IMG/VR virus record: IMGVR_UViG_3300042455_000321
Location: 27,068-91,067 of that record
From: a virus
DNA: 64,000 nucleotides
Strand: one strand, 5' to 3'
Positions 6,267-54,700 of the stretch are shown one piece after another. Below the pieces are notes generated by a model that worked only from the letters and a program-made list of their open reading frames with translations, made no database searches and was not told the origin of the DNA. Each line of letters starts with the position of its first letter. Position 1 is the stretch's first letter. The position numbers and the translations under genes are program-made.

Positions 6267-6282
6267 AAACAAATAAACTATG
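6262..6282 (+). repeat. 21-bp intergenic direct repeat, copy 1
   Basis: Bases 6262-6282 are identical to 6622-6642. Each copy runs from the end of one small gene through the ATG of the next (TTTAAAAACAAATAAACTATG). It lies where the left gene set gives way to the set that uses the AACGTATTAT promoter. Confidence 0.7.
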
Positions 6283-6474
6283 GAAAAAAGATTTATAGTA
6301 AGAGATTTTAAAACTAAACATTTAATTGATTATTCTGGATATATACTTGATGATGATGATGATGTATATGTATTCGATTTATATGCTGAATTTGATACTA
6401 TTGAAGATGCAGAAAGATTTATTGATGGTCAAGAGGGTACATTTCAAATAGAAGCAATATATATTTCTCATTAA
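6280..6474 (+). CDS. Small acidic hypothetical protein
   Basis: 64 aa, very acidic, with a run of six aspartates (LDDDDDDVYVF) and an alpha/beta pattern ending in IEDAERFIDGQEGTFQIEAI. Not recognised. The start lies in repeat copy 1. Confidence 0.55.
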   Translation: MEKRFIVRDFKTKHLIDYSGYILDDDDDVYVFDLYAEFDTIEDAERFIDGQEGTFQIEAIYISH

Positions 6475-6483
6475 CTTTTAACT

Positions 6484-16733: not shown

Positions 16734-18374
16734 ATGGCATTTACTCCAGAACAAATAGCAAAAGCTTTTGCAGGTGCTCAAGGTGATATATATGAGGTCT
16801 TTCAACAAAGAGCTAACCAAGAAGCTAAGCAAACTCAATTAGAAAGAGCTTATGCTAAACAACAATTAGACGCTGAAAGAAAGGAAAGAGCTGAAAGAAA
16901 CGCAGCTTTAAATGATGTATTGACTGCTCAAAGAAACGCTAATTTAGCTACTGGTACTAAGTTAGATGAGTTGTATAACCAAAAAAGCATGGAGATATAC
17001 CAAGATGCTTTTAACGCAGAAAATGCTCAATTATATAAAGATAACTTACCTCTTTGGAAACAACAAGTTATCCCAAAACTTACAGCTTTAAAAAGCCAAG
17101 AAGAAAGTGTTGCATCTGGGTTAAAAAAAGTTGACGAGTATATTGCTAAAAAGAACCAAGAATTAGGAGGGGCTTTGAATGTTCCTGCTGTAAGAAATGC
17201 AATCATTGACGGGTTGGCATTTGACGCTAACAATAAAGTTACAGGTTCTTTAAATGCAGAAGATGCCACGTTAGATGCAATATTATCAGGTCACTATGAC
17301 TTTAAAAATAAAAAACCAATAGATAGTGGTGCTGACTCAGCTGAATATGCTGCTGACTTTTACGACCCTACTAGAACTGAAAACCTGGTTATTACTAAGT
17401 TTAAGCCAGATATGGTTCAACCTATCCCTGTAAAGTATAGACAAAATGGTATTCTTATGAATGATATTTATAAGATGCCTTCTTATTATAAAGTAGTTGA
17501 GGGACAGAAAGACCCTGTATTAGACGTTGTTTCTATTAAAGGTAAAGATGGTGGTGAATATACTGTTGCTTCTGAAAATATGAAACAATTACTAACCAAA
17601 GAACCTATTTCCAGAATGGCAATTCAACACCATGCAAGAATGTTGAAAGACACACCTGAAGGTCAAGAAGCTTTTACAAACTTAGACAAAAATCAATTTA
17701 ATGATTACGTTATAGCTGACTTTTCTAAAAAGCTACCTAAACCTTTCAAAGAAGAAACAAGAGTTGACCCTAATGATAAAGAGTTGTTTGATAGAATGAC
17801 AGCTAGAGCTAGAGGTGATAAAGAAGATAAAACAAAAGATAGCTTAGACTATTTGATGTCTTTATATGGTAAATCATACCCGCAAATAGGTAATTACCCT
17901 ACTCCAAGTAAAGCAAACTACTCAGAACAAAACCTACCTTCTGGGGTTGACATGGGTAAACTTCATGATATAACTTCTAAATCTGGTTCAGACTTATTAA
18001 AAGACGCAAGTAACATTTCTTTCAAAATATGGAAAGATGAAACTACTGGCCAAGATTACTTCTCAGTTGAAGAAACTAAAGGTGCTAACTCTGTACAAAC
18101 AGCATTATCTAAAGAAGCTGATAGAAAGGGTTGGAAGAAAGGACACTTCTATAAAGTTCCAAGTGTAGATTGGTATTTTAATTTCCCTTCTACAAGTGGC
18201 AGAACAGATACTAGAACAATGGAGAAAACAAGTAGAGATGTTAAAGCTGGTTCTACTGCCCCTGTTACTACAACAGCTGCAAGTGTTACTACTGCTGCAC
18301 CTTCTGGTGTAAACTGGGCAAAAAAACAAAAAGATGCTGAAGAAGCAAAAGCAAAAGCAAAAGTTAAAAAATAA
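16734..18374 (+). CDS. Internal/ejected virion protein candidate (546 aa)
   Basis: Not recognised by family. Residues 1-170 are alanine-, glutamine- and charge-rich and probably coiled coil (EAKQTQLERAYAKQQLDAERK); the middle is globular; the C-terminus is low complexity (APVTTTAASVTT, then EEAKAKAKAKVKK). It is the first gene behind a phage promoter motif in an operon with two giant proteins, which is how internal head or ejection proteins are arranged in short-tailed phages. That role is inferred from position and composition. Confidence 0.55.
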   Translation: MAFTPEQIAKAFAGAQGDIYEVFQQRANQEAKQTQLERAYAKQQLDAERKERAERNAALNDVLTAQRNANLATGTKLDELYNQKSMEIYQDAFNAENAQLYKDNLPLWKQQVIPKLTALKSQEESVASGLKKVDEYIAKKNQELGGALNVPAVRNAIIDGLAFDANNKVTGSLNAEDATLDAILSGHYDFKNKKPIDSGADSAEYAADFYDPTRTENLVITKFKPDMVQPIPVKYRQNGILMNDIYKMPSYYKVVEGQKDPVLDVVSIKGKDGGEYTVASENMKQLLTKEPISRMAIQHHARMLKDTPEGQEAFTNLDKNQFNDYVIADFSKKLPKPFKEETRVDPNDKELFDRMTARARGDKEDKTKDSLDYLMSLYGKSYPQIGNYPTPSKANYSEQNLPSGVDMGKLHDITSKSGSDLLKDASNISFKIWKDETTGQDYFSVEETKGANSVQTALSKEADRKGWKKGHFYKVPSVDWYFNFPSTSGRTDTRTMEKTSRDVKAGSTAPVTTTAASVTTAAPSGVNWAKKQKDAEEAKAKAKVKK

Positions 18375-22099: not shown

Positions 22100-22600
22100 A
22101 TGATAAAACCAGTACAACTACCTAAAGAAGTAGTAGCAGAATTAACCCCAAGAATATGTGATGAACATAAAGCTTTTTATTTCTATAAAGCAGCAGCTAA
22201 CTGGTGTTTTGAGAAAGGATATATGAAAGCAGGAGCGTTCTTCCAACACGAGTCTAAAGAAGAATTAGAACACTCTGAGATACTTGAAAAGTTTATCCGT
22301 GATTGGAATGTTATCCCTGAATTAGATGCTATTGAGCAGCCTCCTTTGGAGTTTGATGGCTTAGTAGATATTCTTGAGCAAGCATACGAAATGGAGTATA
22401 AACTTTATGAAGATTACGAAGACTCTAGCAAAGCAGTCTTTAAAATTGGAGACCTATGCGCTTTTGATTTGTTACAACAGTTTAGGACAATTCAAAAAGA
22501 TAGCGTAGCTTTGTATAGCGATTTCTTAAATAAATTAGAATTGATAGACGCTACTGACAAATTCCAATTATTCTACTTCGAAAACAAACACTTTAAGTAA
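22100..22600 (+). CDS. Ferritin, bacterial FtnA type
   Basis: 166 aa, the normal length of bacterial non-haem ferritin, which oxidises Fe(II) and stores it in a 24-subunit shell. Aligned by eye to E. coli FtnA, the ferroxidase residues are all present: E22, E55 and H58 (in KEELEHSEIL), E99 (in AYEMEYKL) and Q132 (in FRTIQKDSV). The AANWC and FLNKLELI segments also match. Some extra metal (C-site) residues of FtnA differ. It sits between two giant virion proteins on the same strand, 15 bases after one and overlapping the start of the other (TAATGG), so it is co-transcribed with virion genes. Confidence 0.88.
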   Translation: MIKPVQLPKEVVAELTPRICDEHKAFYFYKAAANWCFEKGYMKAGAFFQHESKEELEHSEILEKFIRDWNVIPELDAIEQPPLEFDGLVDILEQAYEMEYKLYEDYEDSSKAVFKIGDLCAFDLLQQFRTIQKDSVALYSDFLNKLELIDATDKFQLFYFENKHFK

Positions 22601-25600
22601 TGGATTGTATCTATACATACAAAGGGCAAACGTATTCTTATGCCGACCTAATTAAAAAATTATCAGAAAAAGACCTTGCTTCTTTAAAGGAAAGAGGTCT
22701 TATTTCTGTTGATAGCAAAACATTTGAAGGTTCTTTATCTTCACCTACTATATTTAAAGACATTGACAATGCTATAGCTGGAGAAAACTATGGCGTTGTT
22801 ACTACTGATAAAGATGGTAATGTAGTTACTACTGAGTCTATCAAGGGTTCTAAAGGAAGCTTTGACGAAACAGGGGTTAAGAAATTTGCTAATGACGTCA
22901 ATGACATCTACAGAGAAAACAATAAGACTGCACCAGGTGTTAAGGTAGTTGTTGCTGACGCTAAGACATTTAATGAAGTCCATAAAGAATACTATGATGG
23001 GGTTGAAGCTTCTGAATATGATGAGGCTTTCTACGACCCTAATACCAAAACTATGTATATCAATGCGTCTCAAGCATCATTAGACGCACCTCTCCATGAG
23101 TCAACCCATATATGGTTTAAGTTCATAGAGAAAAGAAGCCCAAGAATATTTCAGGCTGGTATTAATATTGCAAAAGCATCATCTCAATATAACAAGTATA
23201 TCAAGTATAAACAAGCTTATGATATGCTTAGGGCTAAATATCAATTTGAGAAAAAATCAGATGCTGAAGCTAAGACTCTTGCAATGGAGCAAGCAAAAAA
23301 TCAAGTTGTATTAAGCAAAGCTGATAACTATCTTTATGAGTATTTTGATATTACATTAGGTAGTGGTATAGAAGGAGAAAACAATTTAGCAAGCGAAATA
23401 CTTTCAAGAGAGACAGAAAAGGCGTTTAAAACAAAATCAAATAATGAGTTTTCAAAATGGTATACTACTATGATTGAAAGCTTTGTTGATAAGAAAGGAT
23501 TTAAAGGATTAACATACAATCAAGTAAGTAATTTATCTTTAAAAGATTTTACTTCTAAATTGGCTGATGAAGTATCTGGAGGTATTAGAACTAAGAGTGG
23601 TAAAGCTAGAATGGCGACTACTAAACTTATTGAAGATAAAACACCTGCACAAATAGCTGCAGAACAACAACGAAACCAAAACAAGTCACCACAACAAGGT
23701 AGAGGTGCAGCTAAAAAAGAAACTAAACCTGAACCTATATATTCTACTGATGTAATTGATATATTAAATCAATCAAATAAAGGTAAGGCTATATTAAAGA
23801 AAGCTGAAGATTTGTTTGAACAATCAGGGTTACTACAAGAATATGCAGAGAACGAAGGGTTAAGCATGAACAACTTAACACCTCAAGATGTTAGTTCATT
23901 AACTGAACAAATATTAGGTGATATAATGGTAGGTAACCTTAGAGTACCAGCTGAATTTGCTGGTTCTAATTCTATTGGTACATTAAGCACAAGAAGAGGT
24001 AGTATGCCTTCTGGTTTAGTTGGAGACGCATTTAAAGAGTTAGGTGATGGCTTGTCTAAATCAAGCGGTAAAGACGTTTCAGGCAAACAAATCAAATCAA
24101 GATTAACAAACGAGGTTAAGCCTACTACCGCTGAAAAAATTCCGTTTGCAAAAGCTAAAGCAGCATATGAAACAGAAAATATTGATAGTGGAATAAAGAG
24201 TGAAGAGGAACAAATTATTGATAAAATTGTTGAGCTTCAAGATTTATTAAACGTAGAGGACCTTTCCCCTGAAAATAAAAAAGCCATCAGAAATGAAATT
24301 AATGAGCTTGTTAAAAAACAGCAAGCAATTTCTGAAAATCAAGGTAAAGTTTATAAAGGTTCTGGTGACATTGAAGCATTGCCTTCTTCTGAGAAACCTT
24401 TAAAGAAGATATCTGATAGAGAAGAAGATGTTGTTGGAGATGTTGTTAATATTAGAACTGACGAAAAGAAATTAGCTAAGAGACAAATCAATTTAAAAAA
24501 TTGGTTATTACCTGCTGATAGAAAATTACCAATGTCAGCATTGTCTGAGTTGGAAAAGGCTCAAGGTATGAAAGCATACTATGAGAGAACCGATATTGAA
24601 TTATTGAATACTTTAAAGAATGAAATGTCAGAATACATTGGTGAATTAAACCAAGGTAAAACTGAACCAGACCCTATGGGTACAGCTGAAGGTTTATCTA
24701 AAGTTATTGATAATGCATTGAAAGGTGATAGAGCTGCATTTGATTTACTTAGCCCTAAATTAAAAACTACTGTAGATTTAATGAGGTCTAATATAGATAA
24801 CGCATCTGAGTTCATTATGGGCACAGGTTGGTTAAGTGCTGCTGAGTTATCTGAGTATCAAAAAAACCTAGGTACTTATGTAGCTAGATTATATGATAAA
24901 TATACAACCCCTAATGTACCTGTATCTAAGAAAGTTAAAGATAGAATAATATCTAAAATACCTGGACTAAGAGTATTAGTTAAAGAAGATAAGCCAATAG
25001 CAAATGCACAATGGGTTAAAGACTTATCTCCAGAGCAAATAAAAAATGCTATTGATGGGTTCCAAACATGGGTTAAGAATGGTTATTCTGATACAGCTGC
25101 TGATATCAATGCTGGAACAGGTTTTAGACAAAGAGCAATAGATTTGCAAGGTTTAAAAGATAAATTAACTGCTGAAACCCAAAAGAAAATAGATGCAGAG
25201 ACTGCTATGAATAGTGGGGAGGTTAAGAATAAAAATAAATGGCAAACTGAATACAATGAAATTATCAACAATATTGATAAATTAACTAAAGAGTATGAGG
25301 CTGAAGAAAATCAGTACAATAAAGACGTAATTGATGAAGCTAAAAGATTATATGAAGATGCTATCCAACATGTAGAGAAAGGTCAGTATATGGAGTCAGC
25401 TAATGGTTCTATAAACACTAAGCAATTCATGAAGAGAAAGGACTTGCCACAATGGTACAGAGAAGTTATTGGAGAAAGCAATAATGTATTTAAAAATTAC
25501 TTCTATACTATTGGTAGATTGCAAAACCTTGGTAACAAATTACAACTCCATAATAACATATTGGAGATGGGATTAGAAGCTGGATATATTGTAAAGGGTA

Positions 25601-27789
25601 ATGTAAGAGATAATAAATACAAGAACTATGTATTAGTAGGTGGAGAAAGTGCTTACCCTGGTGCTACAAAAAAAATGCAAGGACCTTTGTATGGGTATAA
25701 AATGGACCCATTGTTATACAAAGCTATGTTTGAAATGCCTTCGTTTACTATTGGTGATGAAACACTTCAATCTACATTAGCCCAAAAGATAGGTAATGTA
25801 TATATGGGTCAAGTAGACCTTGTTAATATGATGAAAGTAAGTTTAAACTTATCTTCTATTATTAGAAACTTTGAGTCATATTTTAAAGGTGCATTTATGT
25901 TGTCTGGTACTTATCCTGATTTAATCAGAATGACTACTTCAATGGCAAAAAAAGGAAGCAACTTTTTAGTTGATGGTACATTGTATTATGAGAACAGAAG
26001 CGCTGAACAAAAAGGGAAAACAGAGGGCTATATTAAAGGATTAGCCCAAGATGCTTTACAAGATGGTGCTATTACTTCTATTAGTGAAGATGCAATAAAC
26101 CAATGGGTTAAAGTATTAAACTCAGATAACAAGTTTGATGATGCTCTTAAAATAGGCAACACAGATGCTTTATATAAACAATTCTATAACTCTATGGGTT
26201 ATATGGCTAAAGCTGCTGTTAAAGGTATGCAGAAGCTGTTTATATTAGGGGACGTTGCACCTAAGATGGTACAATATGAGATAAGAAGAAACACTATATC
26301 TTTGGATATATATGGTAAGAACTTCTATGAGTTGAACGAGAAACAAATGAAAGCCGTTAGAGAAGCTGCTTCATTAGATGTTAAAGAAGACTTTGCAACC
26401 CCTTCAAGAGCAGCTGAATTTGGTAAGTTTAGAGGTGTCGGTACGTTTGCTAGATACCGATATGAAATGTATCGTACAATGTATAATACTGCACGTCAAG
26501 TAGCAGGATATGATTTAGATAAAAGCTACAAGCATATTAAGTTTTCTGATGATAAATTAGAAAATCAAGATATGATTAACAAGTTAGCTAGAAACAAAAG
26601 AAGAACTAAGATGATTGGTGCTGCTACATTTAGTGGTGCATTACAAGGTACTTATGCTTTAATGAGTGGTATATTCAACTCTAGCAAAGAAGAGGACCAA
26701 ATGAAACAGAATGGTGTAATTACTAACTCTGGCCTTGGTGAAACTAATCTTATGTATGAGATGTATGCTAATGCTAAAGCTGTTTTAAATGGTGATGCGT
26801 CAATGAGACAAACCGTTCAATTAGTTTTACCTGATTACCTATACGATAAAAGTATTGAGTATACATATGACCCTAAGACCAAGAAGATGACAGTATTAAA
26901 CCTTAGCCAAAACGACCAGTTTGCTGTTGTTACCGATTGGTTGAGAGGTTTAATGTATGATAAGTCTCCTTCCGATAGACCATATGCTGACTATAAAGGG
27001 GTAGGTAACAGGTCTATTGATGTAGTATCTGACCAATTATTAACATTTGGTGGTGCTCCTGTATTGTTACTTACTGCTTTTAAAGCTGCTAACGATAAAA
27101 AGACAGCTAATGAATCTCAATCAGAAGGTTTAATTAATAAAACCTATGTGAATGGTAAAAACTTTGTTCAAGGTGTATTACCAGGTGACATGAGTACTTA
27201 TACTAAAAATGCTGAAATGGCTAAGTATGCTAATGAAGAGTGGGTTGATGCTGCTGGTAATACAATTAATGATATGATTGTTAGCGGGTTCAGAGGTAAA
27301 AAGATGGAGATTAATGTATATGGTTCATTGTCTGGTAGAATTAGAAAAGAACATAAAAGAGCAAGTGATGCTATTATAATGGCTAATGAAGAAGTAGATA
27401 AGATTTTAAATTTAGCTGCAACTAGATATAAGAAAGAAGACGGTAGCCGTGTTAATAGTTTCTATGAAATACCAAGCTTTGACCAAAAGCAAGCTATATT
27501 AGAAGACAAGGATATAAAAGAACAATTAGATAAGCAAAAAGAAATTCTTAACAAACTATTGAGAGCAACTGTAAAAGCTAATAAAATGTATTACAATGCT
27601 GCTAAGAAGTTCTCATTTAGCAAAGAAGAATTAGATACATTGTTTAAAGATGCTAATAGTAATAGGGTTGATGTAGGTAAAATCAAAGGTGATATATTGT
27701 TTGATGAAGACTACATGAACATATTGCAACGCTCTGAAAAAGAGATAGATACATTAGATTTTGGTTCAATGCTTTATAGCTTAGATTAA
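22600..27789 (+). CDS. Giant internal virion protein with HExxH metallopeptidase-like motif (1729 aa)
   Basis: The largest plus-strand gene. Near the N-terminus a zincin signature HESTH (166-170) follows YINASQASLDAPL, resembling phage-borne metallopeptidase-like domains in polyvalent proteins. The middle is rich in lysine, asparagine and glutamate and probably largely coiled. The C-terminal third has conserved-looking globular segments (NLSSIIRNFESYFKG; FATPSRAAEFGKFRGVGTF) and a weakly hydrophobic helix (AATFSGALQGTYALMSG). By size and operon position it corresponds to the large ejection protein of short-tailed phages (T7 gp16-like in role). Proteolysis is untested. Confidence 0.65.
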   Translation: MDCIYTYKGQTYSYADLIKKLSEKDLASLKERGLISVDSKTFEGSLSSPTIFKDIDNAIAGENYGVVTTDKDGNVVTTESIKGSKGSFDETGVKKFANDVNDIYRENNKTAPGVKVVVADAKTFNEVHKEYYDGVEASEYDEAFYDPNTKTMYINASQASLDAPLHESTHIWFKFIEKRSPRIFQAGINIAKASSQYNKYIKYKQAYDMLRAKYQFEKKSDAEAKTLAMEQAKNQVVLSKADNYLYEYFDITLGSGIEGENNLASEILSRETEKAFKTKSNNEFSKWYTTMIESFVDKKGFKGLTYNQVSNLSLKDFTSKLADEVSGGIRTKSGKARMATTKLIEDKTPAQIAAEQQRNQNKSPQQGRGAAKKETKPEPIYSTDVIDILNQSNKGKAILKKAEDLFEQSGLLQEYAENEGLSMNNLTPQDVSSLTEQILGDIMVGNLRVPAEFAGSNSIGTLSTRRGSMPSGLVGDAFKELGDGLSKSSGKDVSGKQIKSRLTNEVKPTTAEKIPFAKAKAAYETENIDSGIKSEEEQIIDKIVELQDLLNVEDLSPENKKAIRNEINELVKKQQAISENQGKVYKGSGDIEALPSSEKPLKKISDREEDVVGDVVNIRTDEKKLAKRQINLKNWLLPADRKLPMSALSELEKAQGMKAYYERTDIELLNTLKNEMSEYIGELNQGKTEPDPMGTAEGLSKVIDNALKGDRAAFDLLSPKLKTTVDLMRSNIDNASEFIMGTGWLSAAELSEYQKNLGTYVARLYDKYTTPNVPVSKKVKDRIISKIPGLRVLVKEDKPIANAQWVKDLSPEQIKNAIDGFQTWVKNGYSDTAADINAGTGFRQRAIDLQGLKDKLTAETQKKIDAETAMNSGEVKNKNKWQTEYNEIINNIDKLTKEYEAEENQYNKDVIDEAKRLYEDAIQHVEKGQYMESANGSINTKQFMKRKDLPQWYREVIGESNNVFKNYFYTIGRLQNLGNKLQLHNNILEMGLEAGYIVKGNVRDNKYKNYVLVGGESAYPGATKKMQGPLYGYKMDPLLYKAMFEMPSFTIGDETLQSTLAQKIGNVYMGQVDLVNMMKVSLNLSSIIRNFESYFKGAFMLSGTYPDLIRMTTSMAKKGSNFLVDGTLYYENRSAEQKGKTEGYIKGLAQDALQDGAITSISEDAINQWVKVLNSDNKFDDALKIGNTDALYKQFYNSMGYMAKAAVKGMQKLFILGDVAPKMVQYEIRRNTISLDIYGKNFYELNEKQMKAVREAASLDVKEDFATPSRAAEFGKFRGVGTFARYRYEMYRTMYNTARQVAGYDLDKSYKHIKFSDDKLENQDMINKLARNKRRTKMIGAATFSGALQGTYALMSGIFNSSKEEDQMKQNGVITNSGLGETNLMYEMYANAKAVLNGDASMRQTVQLVLPDYLYDKSIEYTYDPKTKKMTVLNLSQNDQFAVVTDWLRGLMYDKSPSDRPYADYKGVGNRSIDVVSDQLLTFGGAPVLLLTAFKAANDKKTANESQSEGLINKTYVNGKNFVQGVLPGDMSTYTKNAEMAKYANEEWVDAAGNTINDMIVSGFRGKKMEINVYGSLSGRIRKEHKRASDAIIMANEEVDKILNLAATRYKKEDGSRVNSFYEIPSFDQKQAILEDKDIKEQLDKQKEILNKLLRATVKANKMYYNAAKKFSFSKEELDTLFKDANSNRVDVGKIKGDILFDEDYMNILQRSEKEIDTLDFGSMLYSLD

Positions 27790-27819: not shown

Positions 27820-28569
27820 ATGAGTTTTTTAGATAAATTAATTGACAAAGGTATAGACCCAGTAAGTTTAGGGACAGGTTTGTTCCAGGGCATTGCTGGT
27901 GTGGTTGGTAATATAAAAGCAAAAAAGCAATATAACCAAGCTGAAGAAGCCCATAAACTCGCTATGGGTGGAAGACCAAGTTTCCAAATATCTCCTGAAA
28001 TCAAACAAAGATTAGCTATGGAGCAGGCTCAGTATAATGCTGAAGACCAATCTGTAAAACAAGCTAGAGCAGCACAAGAACAAGCATTAGCTAACTATAT
28101 GGGAACTGCTCAAAGAAATGCTTCTAGCGGTAGTCAAGCTTTAGCTACAGCTGGTGAAGTTGCAGGTAATACAATGCAAGGTGCGGCTAGATTAGGTGCT
28201 CAACAGTTTCAAAACCAATTACAAAAAGGTCAAACTTTAGGCCAAGCTCAAAACGCTATGGCACAACAAAGAATGTTGAAATATGAAGATGCTTTAGCTG
28301 CTAATCAAGAAAAGCAAGCTTTTGAACTTGGTAAAATGCAAGCGTATAGACAAGATATTAATGACTCTAATAAAAATATTTTTGGTGCTTTACCTGGCGT
28401 TTTAGGTGGATTAAGTGGATTGTTTAGTAGAAACATGAAACAAGTTGACATTCCAGGAATAAGTTCAATTTCAAAACCTAGACCATTTGATGTAAGTTAC
28501 CAAGGACCTCAGCGTTCTTACCCAGGATTTGGGAATCAGAAAGTAAATTTTTCTGGATTTGGTGATTAA
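27820..28569 (+). CDS. Small internal/ejection protein candidate
   Basis: 249 aa. Glycine-rich N-terminal hydrophobic segment (VSLGTGLFQGIAGVVGNI), long alanine/glutamine-rich helix (residues 60-190: AQEQALANYMGTAQRNASSGSQ...), then a second glycine-rich stretch (GALPGVLGGLSGLF) and a loose proline-rich tail. This layout resembles small ejection proteins of podoviruses (T7 gp14 or P22 gp7 in role). It has its own phage promoter motif and ends at a strong terminator. The function is inferred from layout and position. Confidence 0.6.
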   Translation: MSFLDKLIDKGIDPVSLGTGLFQGIAGVVGNIKAKKQYNQAEEAHKLAMGGRPSFQISPEIKQRLAMEQAQYNAEDQSVKQARAAQEQALANYMGTAQRNASSGSQALATAGEVAGNTMQGAARLGAQQFQNQLQKGQTLGQAQNAMAQQRMLKYEDALAANQEKQAFELGKMQAYRQDINDSNKNIFGALPGVLGGLSGLFSRNMKQVDIPGISSISKPRPFDVSYQGPQRSYPGFGNQKVNFSGFGD

Positions 28570-28602: not shown

Positions 28603-31600
28603 TTAGTGTCCAGAGCTCTGCTTAACTTCTAATCTTATACCTTGTAGGTTAATTTGCTGATTTGTAGGGAAGTTTAATTGTACCCAAGGAGTTTTAGTTC
28701 TTATTCTATCTCCTACTATGTTTTGAGTATCATACTCTGTATTGGTAGTAGCGTTATTGCTCAATCTATTTCTATACACAGAGCTAAACATTTCTCCTTC
28801 TCTCATAGCGTAGTTGCCATCGCTAATCAAACTAATCTGGGTTAAGTTATTATTTACATTGGTAGAGTTGTCTCTAGCATATATAACTGTACTTGTAGTT
28901 GTTAATTGACCCATTAAGATTACTGATAATGGTTCTATTGTAGCAGGGTATGTACCTATGCTATATGGAGCAGCTATCCAAGCGCCTGTTGTAGCTTGAT
29001 TAAACACACCAGTAGTATTGTCAAATTCTTTATATAGTTTCAACCCAGTTGTACCGTATTGAGAACCAATAGAGAATACATCATCACCTACTCTTATCCA
29101 TTGGTCAGGATTATCTTCATATCCACCTATCCAAGTATTAGCTTGCCAGTTATATACATAAGATACATTCTTGTTTCCTATGTATTGATTAATATGATTA
29201 TCTCCACAGTTACCAGGATATTGTTTACCTGTTATACTTGGGTTAGGGCAAGTAACAAACAACTCATATGTGTATGGGTTAATACCACATTTAATATTAG
29301 CTGCACTATTAGCGCTATCATCAAATGGTAAGTTTCTAAATACTTGATTCCAAAGGAAGCCTGCTTTTTGTTGGCTAATAGGAGAAGCCCCATCTCCAGC
29401 AAACTGTATTATTTCCCTATTAAGGGCGTCTGCCCAGAAAACAATACCTTTGTACCCTACAACGCTTTGAGGGCTAATGCAACCCCAAAGATTAGTAAGT
29501 GGGAGTATTGTACCAAGTACACCTGCAGATGATGTTAACGCAGGGGTTTGGTCAGCAGAATATATTTGTTGTTGTCCTATTAATGCTATATAACTACCAG
29601 AGTTACATAACACCAACATACGTCCACCTTGGTTAGCTTCTTTGCTAGACAAGAATATAGTAGTAATTGGACCTGATGATTGGTCTACAGATGTTTCATC
29701 TAATGCGTCAAATGTAGATAACCCATTTACATTAGAGTTAGGTAATTTAACATTAGACCATCTAATAGAATTGGTTAATTGTTTTTGACCTATATTATCT
29801 ATAGGTGCAATTCTGCCAAAGTCATGTATCCAATTGATTTGATTTATTTCATAACGTGCTTTACTCAACATCATTTGAGAACCACCTTGCGCATCTCTTG
29901 ATTGAGTATATGTGTCTCCAAATAATTGACTTCCGCTTATATTAAATGGAGTTCCAAAAGTAGTAGAACTTGTTATTTCTCCAAACATTGCTACTTCATA
30001 TTCTGAAGGAGTTGTTAATACAGGGGTATAAATACTTACAAATATTTCTTCTTGAAATCTTCTGACTGGGTAGCTAAAGCTAGCACCTGTCCATGGAGAT
30101 GGAGCTGAAGAGTCTAAAAATATTTGATTTATTTGTGCAGATATATAATTCAACATTGTTGCTCTATCTGCCCCTAATATAACGTATCCATCTATTGCAT
30201 TTATAACTGGATAAGTTAATGTTACAGGAGTTAAAGAACCAGTTGGTTTTATATTTAATTCACATAAATCACCAGCCGTATAGCTATATCCTAATCCATC
30301 TTTATAAAGTGATGACAAAGGAATTGCTAACCCATAATATTCTAATTTTGTTGAAGTTTCATTTTGGTCATAAACCAATACACCATCAGCATTTTTATAA
30401 GCAAAACGCATCATGTCTGGCATGAAAGAAATAAAATTAGATGCCTTAGTATTTTTTGCAACACATATAGAATAATAGTTAGCCCAACTAGGTATTACTC
30501 CACCAGCTTGCGTTATAGTAGTATCAAAATCTACATACTCTAAAAGTTGTTTATTTACTGGTTCATATGTAGGTACATTAATAGAGTTAATTTTTTTAAC
30601 TCCAGATTTTCTTAAAGCACTATCGTAATACTGAATACCATACTCATATGAAGAGTTAGGATAAAATGCTCTTTGTTTTAAACCTGATGCATAAGCAGCT
30701 GCATTTAAAACAATACAGTTTTGACCTACACTATTACTTAATGGGTATATAAATTCATCTCCAGTTGTGCCTAATACTACATTAGCTGCAAACTCATTTA
30801 ATTCTTTTAATATATTTAATCGGATTCCTCTAGCAGGAGTATTATAAACATCTTCTAGTTTAGGGTCTCCAGTTTCATTTAATTTAATTAATGACTTCTC
30901 AGATATGTAATGGGGCAATTCAATTAAATTACCACTATACCCATCAATAGACTTACTTAAAGTCAATGTTCCATCAGGAGCAACAGTTGCAGGATTTGAT
31001 TGCTCAAATATTATAGTACCACAATCTACAGGAAACCCATAGTTTACGCCATTAACATAATCTCTTGTTATAATACAACAATAATAAAATCCTGTAGAAG
31101 CTCCTTGGTTTCTTACCATTAATAAAGTTGGAGTACCCCCAAGTATTGGTCCGTTATTTCCTGCTGGTGAACTACCCCAAGATACTTGTGCACTTGTAGG
31201 TGCTGTATATAGTCCTGTAGTTACATCTGCAGGGATATCTGGAGGTGTTGCTGGTGTATTATAACCTTCAAGATTATTTGCCAAGAATAGTCTATTAGAG
31301 GCTAATTCTAAAGCTTTAGAAGTTATAGGTAAACTATCAAATTGTTTAAAAGCTTCTGTAGATGATAAGGTATATTGTATATTTGTACCATTCCAATTTT
31401 GATAGGTAATAAATATAAATGGAGCACCTGGGTCATTATGGTCTGCTACTAACTGAGCATCAGTATAACTAACTGGACCAAATCCAAAGTTATAAGTTCT
31501 TGAAGTTTGGTCATATTTATCAAACACCCTAATTACTTGATATGATGCAGTCTCTAAATTAATAGCAACAAATTCTATTTTCTTCCAATTATCAGGAATA

Positions 31601-32508
31601 ACCTGTGCTTTATCTAAATCTATTGTAACTATATTAGAGCTATAAGATAGTGCAGTTATTTCTTCTTGTCTAGCTGACAAAGAAGTTACACTATAAGGAG
31701 CTAATACAGATATAAAGTTGTCCTCATTGGTTATTCTATAAGTAAACTGATAGTTATTCTTTTGTATAATAATAGGGTCAGTTGCACTACTTCCTCTAAC
31801 ACTTGTTAAAGGTACGTGACCTGGCTCTGTAATTAAAGATAACTCTTCAAAAGAAGGTTTATTAGTATAGTAATCTTTATTTACATCAACATATCTAATG
31901 TTGTTTCTATTATCAGTAAATATCAATTGATTGCCACTAACCCTAGCAGATATAAAGTCAGTAGGTAAAAACCCTAAATCATCTATCCCTGAATTATTAA
32001 CCCATTCTCCATTTAATAATACAGATGATTGGCTTGGCTTGATTGTAGTTATTTTAGAACCTGAAGCATCATATTGTAAAGCCACTTTTACTATATAAGA
32101 GTTAGCAGTTTCAATAGGATTGCCATATTGAGGTGTATAAATAAATAAGTAAATGTATCTTGTATTGCTACTTAACGACTCTGTGTCATCAGTTGCATAC
32201 CCAATACATTTAGCACCATCTTTGTCATAACCCCTAACGTAGTTTCTATTACTAACAAATGGGTTTAACCCAGGCATCGAAGTAAATAAACTTGTCCAAT
32301 CTGTATTACCTGCAAATGGTTCTATAACACCTGCATCTCCACCTGTATTATAACTTTCCATACCACCACCTTGTCCATCACTAGGGCCTAATAAAGAACC
32401 CAAAGAAAAATGGACATTCATAGCAGAAGAATACGACTCCTTGTCTTGAAGATGGGGAGCCGTATCAGTATCTAAACCTTTCGTAAAAAGTTTTGTAATT
32501 TGAGCCAT
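28603..32508 (-). CDS. Large tail protein (tail hub / muzzle-type candidate, 1301 aa)
   Basis: Starts MAQITKLFTKGLDTDTAPH. A G-x-D-x-D-x-x-P opening followed by YSSAMNVHF is seen in large tail or 'stabilisation' proteins of Bacteroidetes phages. The rest is beta-rich with many short serine/threonine strands and no transmembrane part. It is the last gene of the minus-strand operon, after the fibre genes. It may form the tail nozzle or cover the tail tip. The family link rests on my recognition of the N-terminal pattern and on gene order. Confidence 0.55.
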   Translation of the reverse strand: MAQITKLFTKGLDTDTAPHLQDKESYSSAMNVHFSLGSLLGPSDGQGGGMESYNTGGDAGVIEPFAGNTDWTSLFTSMPGLNPFVSNRNYVRGYDKDGAKCIGYATDDTESLSSNTRYIYLFIYTPQYGNPIETANSYIVKVALQYDASGSKITTIKPSQSSVLLNGEWVNNSGIDDLGFLPTDFISARVSGNQLIFTDNRNNIRYVDVNKDYYTNKPSFEELSLITEPGHVPLTSVRGSSATDPIIIQKNNYQFTYRITNEDNFISVLAPYSVTSLSARQEEITALSYSSNIVTIDLDKAQVIPDNWKKIEFVAINLETASYQVIRVFDKYDQTSRTYNFGFGPVSYTDAQLVADHNDPGAPFIFITYQNWNGTNIQYTLSSTEAFKQFDSLPITSKALELASNRLFLANNLEGYNTPATPPDIPADVTTGLYTAPTSAQVSWGSSPAGNNGPILGGTPTLLMVRNQGASTGFYYCCIITRDYVNGVNYGFPVDCGTIIFEQSNPATVAPDGTLTLSKSIDGYSGNLIELPHYISEKSLIKLNETGDPKLEDVYNTPARGIRLNILKELNEFAANVVLGTTGDEFIYPLSNSVGQNCIVLNAAAYASGLKQRAFYPNSSYEYGIQYYDSALRKSGVKKINSINVPTYEPVNKQLLEYVDFDTTITQAGGVIPSWANYYSICVAKNTKASNFISFMPDMMRFAYKNADGVLVYDQNETSTKLEYYGLAIPLSSLYKDGLGYSYTAGDLCELNIKPTGSLTPVTLTYPVINAIDGYVILGADRATMLNYISAQINQIFLDSSAPSPWTGASFSYPVRRFQEEIFVSIYTPVLTTPSEYEVAMFGEITSSTTFGTPFNISGSQLFGDTYTQSRDAQGGSQMMLSKARYEINQINWIHDFGRIAPIDNIGQKQLTNSIRWSNVKLPNSNVNGLSTFDALDETSVDQSSGPITTIFLSSKEANQGGRMLVLCNSGSYIALIGQQQIYSADQTPALTSSAGVLGTILPLTNLWGCISPQSVVGYKGIVFWADALNREIIQFAGDGASPISQQKAGFLWNQVFRNLPFDDSANSAANIKCGINPYTYELFVTCPNPSITGKQYPGNCGDNHINQYIGNKNVSYVYNWQANTWIGGYEDNPDQWIRVGDDVFSIGSQYGTTGLKLYKEFDNTTGVFNQATTGAWIAAPYSIGTYPATIEPLSVILMGQLTTTSTVIYARDNSTNVNNNLTQISLISDGNYAMREGEMFSSVYRNRLSNNATTNTEYDTQNIVGDRIRTKTPWVQLNFPTNQQINLQGIRLEVKQSSGH

Positions 32509-40401: not shown

Positions 40402-40406
40402 TAAGT

Positions 40407-45505: not shown

Positions 45506-45508
45506 AAT

Positions 45509-47373: not shown

Positions 47374-48819
47374 CTATGCTACTGCATTACCAACTTGGAT
47401 TTTAGCGAATTTGCTTGGTGCAAATACTTCTAATCCCATGTTTGAAGTCCAAGTAGTTGTTAAGTTCATCTCTTGGTTAGTAGGAGTAGGAGCAAGACCA
47501 CCAGTCATGATTTCAGCAGTTTCAGAAGAACCTTGACCAGGAGTTGGTTGAGGTAAATATCTGTAACGGAAGTAATCAACCATTCCACCACCTACAGTTT
47601 TTACTTTACCCATTGGTAAGAAGTAAGCAGATGCTTGAACAGTAGAACCAGTATAGTTCATAACTTCTTGGTTTGATAATACTTTAAACGCTTTTAAGTT
47701 GAAAGTAAATCCACCATGCATGAATTTCTCAGCTTCTAAGTCAATTTGACGACCATTAACTGTTAATACACCAGAGTTAATACCTGATTTGTAATAACCA
47801 TTAGTTGGATTTGGAGCTGTGATTGTTTGACCAGCACTTGGTAAGTTTTTCAAGAAGTCAGAAATAGTTGCAACAGTTGCATTAGAACCAGCAATCATAT
47901 ATTCAAATGGAGCACGGTTAGCAATTAATTGAGCTTCGATAGAAGTCAAATCAGCTAAAGTGAAAACATTTCTAGTTGCAGTATCACCTGTGATACCGTA
48001 GTTGCTGATATAGCTATCCATACCACGAGTAGTTTGGTAAGCATATTGTTGAGGGTCAGTTACTGCTTGACCAGCGAAAGTTGATGCAGAAGCTTCACCT
48101 AACCACATAGCCAAAGAGATATCACCACGGTGTTTTTGTAAACCTTGAATCATCTCATAAGGTAAGATGTATGGTTTTCCGTTGATTTCAATCTCAACTT
48201 TAGACATGTTTTGAACGTCAGTAATTTGCAATGCATTACGGAAAATTTGAGTTTGGTTACCCAATTTACCAACTAACCAACGACGAGCTTGTGGTCTGTC
48301 AGAACCTTCAACTTGAGCATTAGAGAATGCAGAAGCTACAGTTGCATTAGCAACAGCGAAAGAAGCACCAGTTACAGAAGCAACAGTAATTGTGTTAGAA
48401 CCATTTTTAGAAGTTACACGAACAACACCGTTTGCACAACGTAATAAGTCACCAGCTACAACGAAATCATAAGAAGCTGCATCTAAAACTAAGTTTCCAC
48501 CAGCTGCAGAAGAATAACCAGTAACAATGTTAATTGGTTTGTATAATTTGTCATTGAAGAAAGAGTAGTAAGTTGGCATAGAAGTAGCTTCTTTTTTACC
48601 AGCTAACCACATGAAATCTAACCACTCAGCGTCATCTTGAATATCTACTAATTGTTTGTAGATATCACGTTGGTCTAAAAGTGAAGTAGATTGGATTAAA
48701 GATGCAGTATTAGTACCATTTACTGTACCACCAGTTCTATTCGCGGATACGTAAGGTTTGTCGGTTGCTCCTGTAGAGCCATTGAACTGTTGTCCAGTCC
48801 AGTTATTAGTATATGCCAT
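47374..48819 (-). CDS. Major capsid protein
   Basis: 481 aa. Called from position (terminase, portal, scaffold-like, this gene), length typical of HK97-fold capsid proteins, and composition: alanine/threonine-rich without long charged runs. A basic-free N-terminal arm is followed by alternating alpha/beta, a QGLQKHRGDISLAMWLGEAS helix and the late KTVGGGMVDYFRYRYLP ... TTTWTSNMGLEVFAPSKFAKIQVGN beta strands. The strong hairpin directly downstream fits a highly expressed gene. No direct family signature that I can name. Confidence 0.75.
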   Translation of the reverse strand: MAYTNNWTGQQFNGSTGATDKPYVSANRTGGTVNGTNTASLIQSTSLLDQRDIYKQLVDIQDDAEWLDFMWLAGKKEATSMPTYYSFFNDKLYKPINIVTGYSSAAGGNLVLDAASYDFVVAGDLLRCANGVVRVTSKNGSNTITVASVTGASFAVANATVASAFSNAQVEGSDRPQARRWLVGKLGNQTQIFRNALQITDVQNMSKVEIEINGKPYILPYEMIQGLQKHRGDISLAMWLGEASASTFAGQAVTDPQQYAYQTTRGMDSYISNYGITGDTATRNVFTLADLTSIEAQLIANRAPFEYMIAGSNATVATISDFLKNLPSAGQTITAPNPTNGYYKSGINSGVLTVNGRQIDLEAEKFMHGGFTFNLKAFKVLSNQEVMNYTGSTVQASAYFLPMGKVKTVGGGMVDYFRYRYLPQPTPGQGSSETAEIMTGGLAPTPTNQEMNLTTTWTSNMGLEVFAPSKFAKIQVGNAVA

Positions 48820-50059: not shown

Positions 50060-52648
50060 TTAAGCCTGTTGTAAATATTGCTCCATCATTCTTCTTCTAA
50101 TATCAGTTGGAGATTCTTCAACTTGCTCTTCTTCCATAGGCATTTCTTGTTGTTGACCCATAGCTTCTTCCATTCCCATTCCCATTTGAGCGCCTGGTTG
50201 TGCCATAGCTTGCTCTTCTGGTGTTGGTTCATCTGCAAAGTTTATATCAGCTCCACTTAAATCTAATGGCTGTCCACCTGCTGTTTCTGGTGCAACCCTA
50301 GATTCTAATTCTGCTGGAACATCAATTTCTCCCATGTTCTCCATCTTATCGTCTTGCAATAACTTAGTTTTATTATCTCTAATATTAGCTGCATCTCTTT
50401 CTTTCGCTTGAACAAATGAAGACTCAACTCTACCAGTTGCTGCAATTCTTTCTCTTTCTAAATCAAACTGACCACGTAATTCAATTAGTTTAGCTTCCAT
50501 TTCTGCTTTAGCTTGTACTAACTGAATATCAATCTGAGCTTGTAACTGAGCAGTTTGTTGTTTAGCTTGTTCAGCAGCCATTGCAGATTGCTGTTGAATC
50601 TGACCATTTTGCTGTTGCATTTGTAAAGCTTCTTGTTGTTTTCTTTCCATGTTCTTACGAACTTTATAAGCTAAGAACAATTCAGCTTGTTTTATATTCT
50701 GTATGTTGTTTAATCTAATAACATCACTAATGTCTAATTGACCTTGTTGTAATGCTACTTTAATTAACTCATCTAATTTAGCTTTTTCTTCTGCTGTAGG
50801 TTTATCAACAATAGAAATGCCAAATGTGTATTTAGTAATATCTGGAGAAACTTTTAATAAATCGACTGTTCCTCTTCCTAATGATTCAGCTATAGCATCT
50901 CCATTAGTTGTTCTAACTATATCTTGTATTCTAATGATAATAGCTTCAGATAATGACTGGGTAATTTGTTTGTCTGAATAGATAATATCGCTAAGTGCGT
51001 TATTAGTACCAGATGCTGCTAACTGAGCAACAGTAGTCAATAACTTAGGGTTAGGAGTAGAGCCATCTGTTAATTCATTTAACCCAAGTGTTTGACGTAT
51101 CATGTCAAGGTTTTGGTTAATTAAATTCCAGTATTCAGCTATAGCTCCACCTGTTCCACCTTGTAATTCTTGTATTGCTGGAGGATTTGGTCTACCATCA
51201 AATGTAGTAGAACGACTTACTAATACCCCACGTTGTAAATACAAATCAATAATATCAGATGGTTTCATTGTTTGTCCACCACCAGATAAACTAACTTCTT
51301 CTAATGCTGCTAGGTTAATGTTAAAACCTTTAGGTACAGATGTATTTAATTCATGCTGTAATCTATAGTAAGCTAATTGTATTGCATCAGCGTAAGGAAT
51401 AATAGCTTCCATACGGCTGAATGTTTTCATATCAAAAAAGTCACAAGCATTTATGTGGTAACTTGATTTAGCACGAGCCATATTAACTGGGTCGCGTTTA
51501 ATATCGTATTGCTTTCCGTAGTCAAATATGATGTCCGTACCAACAATCCATTTAGCCCTATATACACCTTGTACTTGCTTTCTTTTATATTTATCTTTCT
51601 TGTTATTATAGTCATCATATGAAGCTCTTCCAAAAATAGTATTTCCTCTTCTGTCAATTCGTTCTTCACGAACTAACTCATCAGCAGATATAATTTCTAA
51701 ATCTAAAACTTGTACTTTACCTCTATTCCAAAAGTCAGAATAACTACCATAGTAAGCATTACCTACTGGGGTAGATGGTCTCCATTGGTTTGTAGAAGCA
51801 TATTTGTAAATCATCTCAATGTCTTCATTGGTTAATTCACCATTAGACATTTGAATAACTTGCGCTACTGGAACTTCTAATATTTCTCCTGCATATCTTA
51901 AATCTCTAAAGTCAGGATATGTACAATAGCTTAATATTAATCTTCTTGGGTCAACTCTTCTAAATCCTACTAACTCACCATCTCTGTAATCTTTATATGC
52001 AGATACACCATAGTCAAACAAATCTTGTAAAGTTTGTCTGCGTTGGCTTTCATAATCATTTTGGCTAAATGTTAATTCAATTGCTTGTTCTGCTTCCATA
52101 GCAGTTTTATGACGCAGCCCAATCTCATATATTTTAATACCATCAATATCCTCTGGTTCTCCTTCTCCTGGTTGTATAGGAGCTGGTATTTCAGCTTGTT
52201 CTCCCATGACTTCTTTTTGAAGTTCTCTCATAGAGGCCTTCATCTTCATCATAGTAATTTGCTGTTCTAATTCTGTTTGTGCTAATGGGTCAATTGGGTC
52301 TATTTGAACGTCCCAATTTTGTTTTTCTAATAACCCTAAAGCTATTCTTCTAAACTTAGGAATAATAGGAAGTACCGACCAATCTACTACTAATGTGTTA
52401 TTTGTAGGGTCTTGGTCAGGAGTTAATACCTTTTTGTATCGGTCGATTGTTTGAGAACCACGCGCATAGGTTTTAACCCATTCGTATTTGTCTCGGCTTC
52501 TCCAACCTATTGAACCAAATGGAGTATCCCCATAAGCCGAATATGCAGCTCTACAATACTGTAATAAAAAAGGTTTCTCGGTTTTTCTTTTTGGGTCAAT
52601 ATTTTCGTCTGGAAAATTTACACCGACACTTGATACTATTTCTGCCAT
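50060..52648 (-). CDS. Portal protein
   Basis: 862 aa, long as in large podovirus-type portals. N-terminus includes RSRDKYEWVKTYARGSQ, then the crown/clip-type core with RVDPRRLILSYC, a stretch LAALEEVSLSGGGQTMKPSDIIDLYLQRGVL, the wing-helix region ATDGS-like NELTDGSTPNPKLLTTVAQLAASGTNNAL and a C-terminal glutamine-rich coiled tail (KRMERKQQEALQMQQQNGQIQQQ) typical of portal barrels. It lies directly downstream of the large terminase. Confidence 0.8.
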   Translation of the reverse strand: MAEIVSSVGVNFPDENIDPKRKTEKPFLLQYCRAAYSAYGDTPFGSIGWRSRDKYEWVKTYARGSQTIDRYKKVLTPDQDPTNNTLVVDWSVLPIIPKFRRIALGLLEKQNWDVQIDPIDPLAQTELEQQITMMKMKASMRELQKEVMGEQAEIPAPIQPGEGEPEDIDGIKIYEIGLRHKTAMEAEQAIELTFSQNDYESQRRQTLQDLFDYGVSAYKDYRDGELVGFRRVDPRRLILSYCTYPDFRDLRYAGEILEVPVAQVIQMSNGELTNEDIEMIYKYASTNQWRPSTPVGNAYYGSYSDFWNRGKVQVLDLEIISADELVREERIDRRGNTIFGRASYDDYNNKKDKYKRKQVQGVYRAKWIVGTDIIFDYGKQYDIKRDPVNMARAKSSYHINACDFFDMKTFSRMEAIIPYADAIQLAYYRLQHELNTSVPKGFNINLAALEEVSLSGGGQTMKPSDIIDLYLQRGVLVSRSTTFDGRPNPPAIQELQGGTGGAIAEYWNLINQNLDMIRQTLGLNELTDGSTPNPKLLTTVAQLAASGTNNALSDIIYSDKQITQSLSEAIIIRIQDIVRTTNGDAIAESLGRGTVDLLKVSPDITKYTFGISIVDKPTAEEKAKLDELIKVALQQGQLDISDVIRLNNIQNIKQAELFLAYKVRKNMERKQQEALQMQQQNGQIQQQSAMAAEQAKQQTAQLQAQIDIQLVQAKAEMEAKLIELRGQFDLERERIAATGRVESSFVQAKERDAANIRDNKTKLLQDDKMENMGEIDVPAELESRVAPETAGGQPLDLSGADINFADEPTPEEQAMAQPGAQMGMGMEEAMGQQQEMPMEEEQVEESPTDIRRRMMEQYLQQA

Positions 52649-52676: not shown

Positions 52677-52686
52677 ATAATACGTT
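52677..52686 (-). promoter_or_regulatory. Phage promoter motif AACGTATTAT
   Basis: Minus-strand TATAACGTATTATCTAA, overlapping the last bases of the terminase gene and 28 bases before the portal ATG. Confidence 0.78.
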
Positions 52687-54700
52687 ATAAATACTTCCCA
52701 AATAGGCGGTTAGTACCTTTTGACTTATAAAAACTAAAGTAGTCTTCTATCCTTTCAGTTTTAACTTCTTTTCTTTTAGGGTTAAATTGTGGGTTATACA
52801 TCATCATTAATGCATACCCTACAGCCATAGCTACGTCATACTCAGTCGTGTCATCTGGACTAAACCCTAACCAATCCTCCAGTATCTGCTCGTACCAAAT
52901 ATTATCTATGTTATCATTGATATATTGGTCCGTTAGTTCAGCTATGTATATATTGTTTGAAAGGGTAGCTGCAATACCTGGTTTATCTTTTCCTGGAACT
53001 TTAAAACAAAAGTCTGTATAACCCCTTTTTTCAAAGTAATGGAGTATCCCTGGCTTGTTGTTCTCTATAAGTGCTTGGCAACCATAATAATGAAGAGCCA
53101 TCAAACAATCCTCATAAAATACTTCTGGGCTAGGACGTGCAACATATAACAATACAGGAGCATTATCAGCATCTGTTTGTCTTAATGGATTAGACTTTTT
53201 CATTATACATAAAGCCCCATTAGACATTCTTGACTCATGACCTTTACTTACATTCACATGGTCATAAGGGTCAATACCCCCACAATACATATGTTTGTTT
53301 TGAGCAAATGCAATATCCCCTTTTCTAGTCACATTGTTAACTTGGTCAGGAAACTCTATTATCTGGAATTTACCATTTGGGTTTTCATGGAATGTAACAG
53401 TACCGTCACGTTTCATATCGTCCCATTGTAAGTTACCAGTAACTACTTTTTTCTTAGCCCACTTAAGTATATCTAACCTATCGTTTAAAAGAATAGGATT
53501 AAATACGCAAGTTGATGCATCTGTTTGAAACGCTTCTTTTTCATCTAATGGTTCTTTTCTTTTTGCAGAAGATAAAGCTCTTGGGTCATTCTGTAATGCT
53601 TTTCTTTCTTCTAATATATCCATACGCGCTAATTCTTTATTAGCGTTTCCAAATTTATCTATATGACGAGTTTCATCAGCAGGAGTAAAAAACTTATACA
53701 TACCTGACTGGGTTCTTCTTCCTTCTTTTGTATTTTGGTCAGACCCTTTCCACATCTGTAGATAAGGTTTGCCACCAGCTTCCATTTCCTCTACTGTTGT
53801 AGTATGGAGAGACTTGCCTATAATACGCCCTTCATCGTCCATTAAACAATACTTAACTACGTTCCATCTTCTATTGATATCTACAAGAGTTGTTTTACCT
53901 GCTTCATCGGCTATATAGAAACCTAGCTTCTGTCCATCATAAGCACCTTCTGTTGACGATTTAAAGTCTATTCCTGACATTAACTCTTCGCCATCTATAT
54001 CTACCTTACCACTTTGGAATTTAAGCCCTGTAGCAGGAACTTTACCTGTGTTAGGCATATCTGATACTGGCTTAAAAAAAGAAGGCAACTTTCTAAATGG
54101 GTTAACTATTGCTTTCCTAAATACCGACTTAGCATCGTCATCTGTTTTAGATTGGATACCTGTCCAAAAGTTTTCTGACCTAGTTGTTTGTTCTAATGCA
54201 ATAGCACCTGCTCTGTAGGTTTTGCCACTACGACGTTTAGTGGTTTCACATAACCCAAATGCGTTTTCATCTTCTACGGTATATTGCCATGCATAAAAGA
54301 AATCTCTATCTACCTTTCTATATTTAGGCAACCCAATATCAAGGTGATAACAAGAAAGGTAAAACCAATGTGTGCCTGTTATATAGGTAGGTTTATTATT
54401 ATTCATAAACCAATGGCCACCTATTCTACGTATCCAGCAATACTCTTTAAATTCTTTTAAATCTGGGTGGATATATCTAGGGTCTTGCTTTTGCTTTTCT
54501 GCTTCTTCTTTTTCCCATATTGGAAACTTTTCCCAACGCTTGTCTATTTCCCAATAGCAATTGTCATATTTAATTGCTCGCCTTTCAACACCTACATCTT
54601 GGTAGTCACCAGTATATGGATTGTATACATATCCTTCTTTAGGAAGGTTACATATCAACCCTTGTATGTTTTCTGATTTACCACCTACATTCTTTATCAT
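52685..54700 (-). CDS. terL: Terminase large subunit
   Basis: 671 aa, the packaging motor. ATPase: Walker A-like TTKRRSGKT (153-161) and Walker B GFYIADEAGK (260-269, Asp265-Glu266), followed by a coupling motif (HTTTVEE). Nuclease: GGIDPYDH near residue 470 gives the first acidic residue of the RNase H-like domain, with further acidic residues in EDCL and DVAMAVGYALM. It overlaps the small gene upstream by 4 bases (54697-54700). Confidence 0.9.
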   Translation of the reverse strand: MIKNVGGKSENIQGLICNLPKEGYVYNPYTGDYQDVGVERRAIKYDNCYWEIDKRWEKFPIWEKEEAEKQKQDPRYIHPDLKEFKEYCWIRRIGGHWFMNNNKPTYITGTHWFYLSCYHLDIGLPKYRKVDRDFFYAWQYTVEDENAFGLCETTKRRSGKTYRAGAIALEQTTRSENFWTGIQSKTDDDAKSVFRKAIVNPFRKLPSFFKPVSDMPNTGKVPATGLKFQSGKVDIDGEELMSGIDFKSSTEGAYDGQKLGFYIADEAGKTTLVDINRRWNVVKYCLMDDEGRIIGKSLHTTTVEEMEAGGKPYLQMWKGSDQNTKEGRRTQSGMYKFFTPADETRHIDKFGNANKELARMDILEERKALQNDPRALSSAKRKEPLDEKEAFQTDASTCVFNPILLNDRLDILKWAKKKVVTGNLQWDDMKRDGTVTFHENPNGKFQIIEFPDQVNNVTRKGDIAFAQNKHMYCGGIDPYDHVNVSKGHESRMSNGALCIMKKSNPLRQTDADNAPVLLYVARPSPEVFYEDCLMALHYYGCQALIENNKPGILHYFEKRGYTDFCFKVPGKDKPGIAATLSNNIYIAELTDQYINDNIDNIWYEQILEDWLGFSPDDTTEYDVAMAVGYALMMMYNPQFNPKRKEVKTERIEDYFSFYKSKGTNRLFGKYL

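Follow-up and report, generated by a model that had tools for sequence, protein, structure and literature searches.

The reports nearest to the gene described here are those on the Dps proteins and Mn-catalases of 'Gratiaviridae' and other gut phages (PMC8008677) and on a particle protein of Vi01-like phages (PMC10892097). The former belong to the ferritin-like superfamily, occur in Bacteroides phages and are thought to cut iron and oxygen stress, but they are of other families, and the consulted part of that paper describes no linkage to virion cargo. The latter, gp217 of the Vi01-like phage Sajous1, was predicted to be ferritin-like, was found in particles by mass spectrometry and adjoins a tail gene; it differs in that the prediction comes from fold recognition only (22% identity) and in that Sajous1 is a myovirus of Enterobacteriaceae, and we set it beside our protein by description. 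A third line of work concerns polyvalent proteins, giant multidomain proteins with zincin-like HExxH, DarB-like and LPD domains that are predicted to be packaged and injected (PMC5512222), while phage crAss001 provides a structural precedent for large cargo proteins stored in head and tail (PMC10172136). The polyvalent proteins are similar to the neighbours of our gene, but the word ferritin is absent from the paper that describes them, and the ferritin of the present phage is a small gene of its own, tied in position to the giants. Phage ferritins of this kind are already present in databases as ferritin-named proteins of uncultured phages (A0A6J5MFB8 and A0A8D9C9X5), the first of which (UniProt/BFVD, named Ftn) is 42% identical to ours. 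In the open-access literature that we searched, there was no paper on a phage ferritin family, clade or gene context, and a paper on Tenacibaculum phage Larrie mentions ferritin for the host only. The present family differs from the prior reports in that it is a true FtnA-like ferritin, forms a phage-only clade and has a fixed cargo-operon context.

The window, by which we mean the whole 64,000-nucleotide stretch that was analysed, is the final 64 kb of a 91-kb IMG/VR record. Its main features are as follows.

16734..18374, plus strand: 546-aa protein upstream, comparable in place and length to flavophage virion proteins of ~500 aa
18386..22084, plus strand: upstream giant, 1232 aa, ending ...KGKDCL, with a ParB-like stretch MPIVLDENGNIIDGRKRVAQAI seen by eye only
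22100..22600, plus strand: ferritin gene, 166 aa, predicted helices A 9-39, B 42-68, C 88-116, D 119-146 and E 154-164
22598..22602, plus strand: TAATG, ferritin stop and start of the 1729-aa gene sharing one base (sequence)
22600..27789, plus strand: downstream giant, 1729 aa, beginning MDCIYTYKG, distant homologue of phi18:3 gp123 and Gundel_1 gp074
23095..23109, plus strand: HESTH, a zincin-like HExxH sequence motif, residues 166-170 of the 1729-aa protein
27820..28569, plus strand: 249-aa gene, last of the rightward operon, convergent with a tail gene (ORF call)
28603..32508, minus strand: virion structural protein, 1301 aa, phrog_14478
47374..48819, minus strand: major head protein, phrog_1328
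50060..52648, minus strand: portal protein, phrog_6547
52685..54700, minus strand: terminase large subunit, phrog_6681

The preliminary description had placed a 166-aa ferritin between genes for 1232-aa and 1729-aa proteins, overlapping the latter, and the ORF calls bear this out. The ferritin ORF begins with ATG after a 15-nt gap from the end of the 1232-aa ORF, and its stop codon shares one base with the start of the following gene. The same one-base overlap recurs in an 80%-identical relative (L003) and in L034-type loci, and it likely couples translation of the ferritin to that of the 1729-aa gene.

The source, a tailed phage, has its relatives among the flavophages (Elemovirus, Pervagoviridae and Pachyviridae). 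Its nearest terminases, at 25-30% identity, are those of Elemovirus, Maribacter phage Panino, Cellulophaga phages phi38:1 and phi18:3 and Tenacibaculum phage Gundel_1, and the terminase, portal, major head and tail genes lie at 28603-54700 on the strand opposite to the ferritin. Metagenome contigs can carry single-gene insertions from host DNA, and the preliminary description had named misassembly from the host as a danger. A second assembly of this phage (99.98% identical), however, has the ferritin locus too, diverged relatives keep it with the same layout, and the tree described below places the protein in a phage-only clade, which leaves host contamination or misassembly hardly conceivable. 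In the diverged phage G002/L003 the ferritin is 80% identical to that of the window and the downstream giant 27%; the 1301-aa structural protein is at 46%, the terminase at 81%, the portal at 75% and the major head protein at 76%. A recent swap of the ferritin, considered on account of its 80% against the 27-46% of its neighbours, was dropped, as terminase, portal and head protein are at 75-81% too. By these identities, the fast-diverging part is the giants and tail proteins.

That the protein has a ferritin fold, whose absence the preliminary description had counted as fatal to its reading, agrees with both profile and predicted structure. Pfam Ferritin (PF00210) matches with E=7.4e-20 and 71.8 bits against a cut-off of 24.5, and the AlphaFold2 model, computed from a 30-sequence alignment, is a five-helix (A-E) di-iron ferritin fold with a mean pLDDT of 95.5. 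Its top Foldseek structure is V. cholerae FtnA (3qz3; TM 0.90), with TM values of 0.86-0.91 against bacterial FtnA crystal structures in general, and the closest solved structures by sequence are FtnA of H. pylori, C. jejuni and enterobacteria. The model carries the maxi-ferritin trait of a four-helix bundle with a short fifth helix, unlike Dps. In Dps, the subunit has four helices without helix E, and the ligands lie at the dimer interface. Membership of Dps was ruled out on these grounds, since helix E is present and the ligands are intra-subunit; bacterioferritin and rubrerythrin, like Dps, were excluded by profile scores and fold. Against the NCBIfam FtnA equivalog model NF007638, the window ferritin scores 48.6 bits, below its cut-off of 178.

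The preliminary description had further credited the protein with all five ferroxidase residues of FtnA. These (E22, E55, H58, E99 and Q132) do align with the ferroxidase ligands of bacterial FtnA and, together with Y29, are invariant in 97/97 phage ferritins. Their codons are as follows.

22163..22165, plus strand: E22, ferroxidase ligand (FtnA alignment; 97/97 invariant)
22184-22186, plus strand: Y29, ferroxidase ligand (97/97 invariant)
22262-22264, plus strand: E55, ferroxidase ligand (FtnA alignment; 97/97 invariant)
22271-22273, plus strand: H58, ferroxidase ligand (FtnA alignment; 97/97 invariant)
22394-22396, plus strand: E99, ferroxidase ligand (FtnA alignment; 97/97 invariant)
22493-22495, plus strand: Q132, ferroxidase ligand (FtnA alignment; 97/97 invariant)

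The site is nevertheless not fully FtnA-like, as the phage ferritins have lost the third iron site, which E49, E126, E129 and E130 form in E. coli FtnA. I131, D134 and S135 of the window protein correspond to E126, E129 and E130; across the phage ferritins, position 131 is I, T, L, N or G (mostly Ile), 135 is S or A, and 54 and 134 are variable. The ferroxidase site of animal H-ferritin has Gln and a small residue (Ser or Ala) where FtnA has Gln and Glu. With the third iron site lost, the phage site resembles in its residues that of animal H-ferritin more closely, a pattern that makes simple di-iron ferroxidase chemistry the best guess. In overall sequence, similarity to animal H-ferritin is low, and searches by sequence and by fold place bacterial ferritins nearer. 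With the bacterial FtnA proteins (E. coli 1eum, V. cholerae 3qz3, H. pylori 3bve) the phage protein shares the five-helix subunit (TM 0.88-0.91) and the matching ligand series E, Y, E, H, E, Q; it differs from them in lacking the third iron site, in its phage-only clade and virion-cargo context, and in identity, which is at most 33% to bacterial FtnA from 80 genomes.

When the window protein alone was used as the query, scans of viral and genome contigs returned only two phages or none. The family was opened by query alignments, first with bacterial FtnA mixed in and then phage-only. The former gave ~58 further phage loci in IMG/VR, and the latter matched at least 234 IMG/VR stretches, 80 of which were retrieved. 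The phage ferritins are 38-55% identical to the window protein, apart from two outliers at 32-35%. Two maximum-likelihood trees split them from bacterial FtnA with support of 100/100, and on these trees, whose bacterial sampling is narrow (mainly Gammaproteobacteria and Campylobacterota, with no Bacteroidota ferritins included), the window ferritin belongs to a phage-only clade. Absence from cultured phages is judged from a tblastn search of 50,697 phage records, which gave no relative even at E<=10 (a complete lack of matches that is itself odd), and from profile searches of seven cultured relatives, which found no ferritin. As the cultured relatives examined are without it, the ferritin is dispensable for this virion type. 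T4-like and jumbo phages carry the same ferritin family (L071, L081, L047, L061 and related loci), close to genes for a recombinase, a helicase or a ribonucleotide reductase, or else a few genes ahead of the one for the major head protein.

The position of the ferritin in related phage contigs, which the preliminary description had suggested looking at, is conserved. A same-strand ORF of at least 800 aa adjoins the gene in 47 of 98 distinct ferritin loci, on both sides in 22 of them, against 44/417 size-matched genes of the same loci (Fisher p=2e-15, a value that treats related contigs as independent, which they are not). All ferritins flanked by such giants form one clade (support 96/98), in which only L207, which starts at a contig edge, lacks a giant neighbour. 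By sequence, the giants beside these ferritins, 69 in all, group into 23 families, or 10 when any local similarity is counted. A phrog_6681 terminase occurs in 18/22 records of the giant-flanked clade versus 1/18 (weak) of the records with other phage ferritins, 12/18 of which have a T4-type head protein. In G053, whose terminase is 60% identical to that of the window, the order is 503 aa, 1046 aa, ferritin (one-base overlap), 2019 aa and 276 aa. Among more distant terminase relatives (~33%), 12 contigs of 22-65 kb gave no ferritin match, so that at that depth the ferritin is optional, within the limits set by contigs that are fragments.

The operon had been assumed in the preliminary description to encode internal virion proteins, an assumption that profile homology to gp123 and synteny in relatives now support. 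The 1729-aa protein aligns over ~300 columns with gp123 of Cellulophaga phage phi18:3 (hhalign P=1.1e-7, probability 94%), whose annotation comes from experimental MS/MS of particles, and with gp074 of Tenacibaculum phage Gundel_1, annotated as structural (hhalign P=4.5e-11). In L046, the genes preceding the ferritin match gp097, gp098 and gp099 of phi38:1 in order, the gene following it is homologous to elemo gp18, and the ferritin is syntenic with the structural module gp097-gp101 of phi38:1. The zincin-like HExxH motif occurs in 27/69 flanking giants, often after an 'IxLN' strand; the giant directly after the ferritin in L034 (8492-12157) has a DarB-like antirestriction domain (phrog_10089, E=2e-17), and one flanking giant has a weak LPD38 domain. 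DarB-like antirestriction is a known co-injected type of defence. The neighbours of the ferritin are, then, giants with polyvalent-type domains or virion-protein homology, as membership of a cargo operon demands. The 1232-aa protein belongs to no Pfam or PHROG family and has detectable relatives only within its own group, and its position suggests that it is cargo; homology of this and the 546-aa protein to flavophage virion proteins was sought and none was detected. Both giant neighbours are probably packed into the particle. By eye, a ParB-like nuclease stretch can be seen in two upstream giants, LDENGNIIDGRKRVAQA (18386-22084) and LDSNGRIIDGKKRIAAA (L352:3530-6670); Pfam made no ParB call in the 1232-aa protein of the window.

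Between the window phage and G002/L003, the ferritin has a dN of 0.14 and a dS of 1.65 (ratio ~0.085), which together with its conserved position means that this is no chance ORF. The same ratio is 0.14 for terminase, 0.17 for portal and 0.22 for the major head protein, all higher than that of the ferritin; these estimates show purifying selection on the ferritin at least equal to that on the three virion core genes. On this computational evidence, the gene is a phage-lineage ferritin with a stable place in the cargo-type operon of one lineage of Bacteroidota-type tailed phages.

We suggest that the ferritin would be made late, in step with the giants by way of the overlapping start and stop codons. 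Such late co-expression is, from the arrangement of the genes, highly probable, and we are similarly confident that the protein is a working ferroxidase. It would oxidise and sequester Fe2+ with O2 or peroxide at the H-ferritin-like di-iron site. Less certainly, it would travel with the cargo, either packed in the head, with delivery in the form of subunits or small oligomers, or retained there as a cage; its physical presence in or on the particle has, in our estimate, an even chance. Packaged or incoming DNA and cargo enzymes would be shielded from Fenton damage, and the free iron of the infected cell would be controlled. A 24-subunit ferritin cage is too wide for a phage portal, so ejection would need unassembled subunits, while a cage kept in the head is possible. 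Taken together, a phage-lineage ferritin that oxidises iron and travels with the virion cargo is a reading for which we put the balance at the midpoint.

The main rival is an auxiliary iron detoxifier that is expressed from a late promoter, acts in the cytoplasm and never enters the particle, where it would mop up iron from host protein breakdown and limit oxidative damage to phage DNA before lysis. The ferritin fold and its intact ligands fit this equally well, as would the late-operon position taken alone. Sister ferritins are located outside virion operons, the T4-like and jumbo relatives lying near replication or other genes; a virion role is therefore not general to the family, and ferritin function needs no virion. 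The phage Dps proteins and Mn-catalases have been interpreted likewise (PMC8008677). A free-riding gene would, however, be expected to move, and one clade stays beside giant cargo genes even though these giants make up 23 sequence families, more than one locus shows the one-base overlap with the downstream giant, and the ferritin evolves as slowly as virion core genes. We therefore consider a purely cytoplasmic sink a serious contender whose chances, for the iron mopping as for the confinement to the cytoplasm, fall somewhat short of even.

The ends of the giants that face the ferritin carry a further regularity, for which the relevant codons in the window are the following.

22076-22078 and 22606-22608, plus strand: terminal Cys codons of the upstream and downstream giant, respectively (sequence)
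22457..22459, plus strand: C120 codon, start of helix D (alignment)

In all 25 two-giant loci (both giants of at least 500 aa), there is a Cys within the last six residues of the upstream giant and another within the first six residues of the downstream giant, although these ends are short homologous modules and the counts are not independent. The upstream giant typically ends ...LExxGLxxKxxxCP and the downstream one starts M..CKIxYxGxxYSYEEF. Other ORFs of the two-giant loci have a terminal Cys in 2/101 cases at the start and 18/101 at the end, and Cys makes up 0.5% of the residues in the longer ORFs of the window. In loci without a giant after the ferritin, a terminal Cys is present in 1/15 upstream giants, and in the ferritin-free isolates examined no Cys was found at the corresponding giant ends. 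In the ferritin itself, Cys120 is present in 43/48 members of the giant-linked clade versus 0/49 other phage ferritins.

A docking or redox link between the ferritin and the giants is possible from these patterns. In a more specific and unlikely version of the cargo reading, the ferritin in the ejected cargo would join both giants through cysteines, namely the C-terminal ...CP of the upstream giant, the N-terminal M..C of the downstream giant and its own Cys120, and iron or redox chemistry would lock or release the complex. If true, a cysteine-linked ferritin would be an iron-dependent switch in the particle, acting at assembly or entry. The facing cysteines (25/25), the clade-specific Cys120 and the tight coupling to the giant genes would also suit a ferritin fold kept as a scaffold or chaperone partner of the giants with iron chemistry secondary; the ligands, however, are invariant in 97/97, beyond what a purely structural role demands, which makes this decidedly improbable. 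Still further from what we expect is an iron-loaded particle ferritin serving as bait for host iron receptors. A Ferrojan Horse hypothesis of this type exists for marine phages, and mass spectrometry of Vi01-like particles is reported to have shown a ferritin-like protein (PMC10892097), but TonB and FeoB mutants were infected normally in that case (PMC10892097), and our ferritin gene sits with likely internal cargo, away from the tail-fibre genes (34831-41618); we give the bait very little chance.

Carriage or management of iron by phages has so far been argued mainly from hypothesis. Here there is a defined and widespread family with an intact ferroxidase site, long fixed in a virion-cargo operon, which suggests that redox or iron protection can be among the things that a phage stores alongside its DNA or delivers with it. 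Ferritin and giants are arranged alike in dozens of related uncultured viruses, so that carriage or control of iron by the particle is directly testable, with E55, H58, Q132, Cys120 and the terminal cysteines as residues for mutation. The phage-only clade without the third iron site also constitutes a natural set for comparing ferritin mechanisms.

Some further observations concern the genome at large. The 99.98% identical assembly (G001) exits the right end of the window and ~7.4 kb further on re-enters it at 6258, and another contig (G000) begins with a 165-base copy of window positions 6317-6481; these joins, at window 6258-6481 and the window end, point either to a genome that is circular or permuted or to a join made in assembly. 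The 1856-aa tail-fibre gene (34831-40401) contains many internal repeats of roughly 45-80 bases. Finally, three small proteins encoded at 44966-46284, between head and tail genes, share 95-99% identity with their counterparts in the diverged phage G002 and are more conserved than terminase or head protein.
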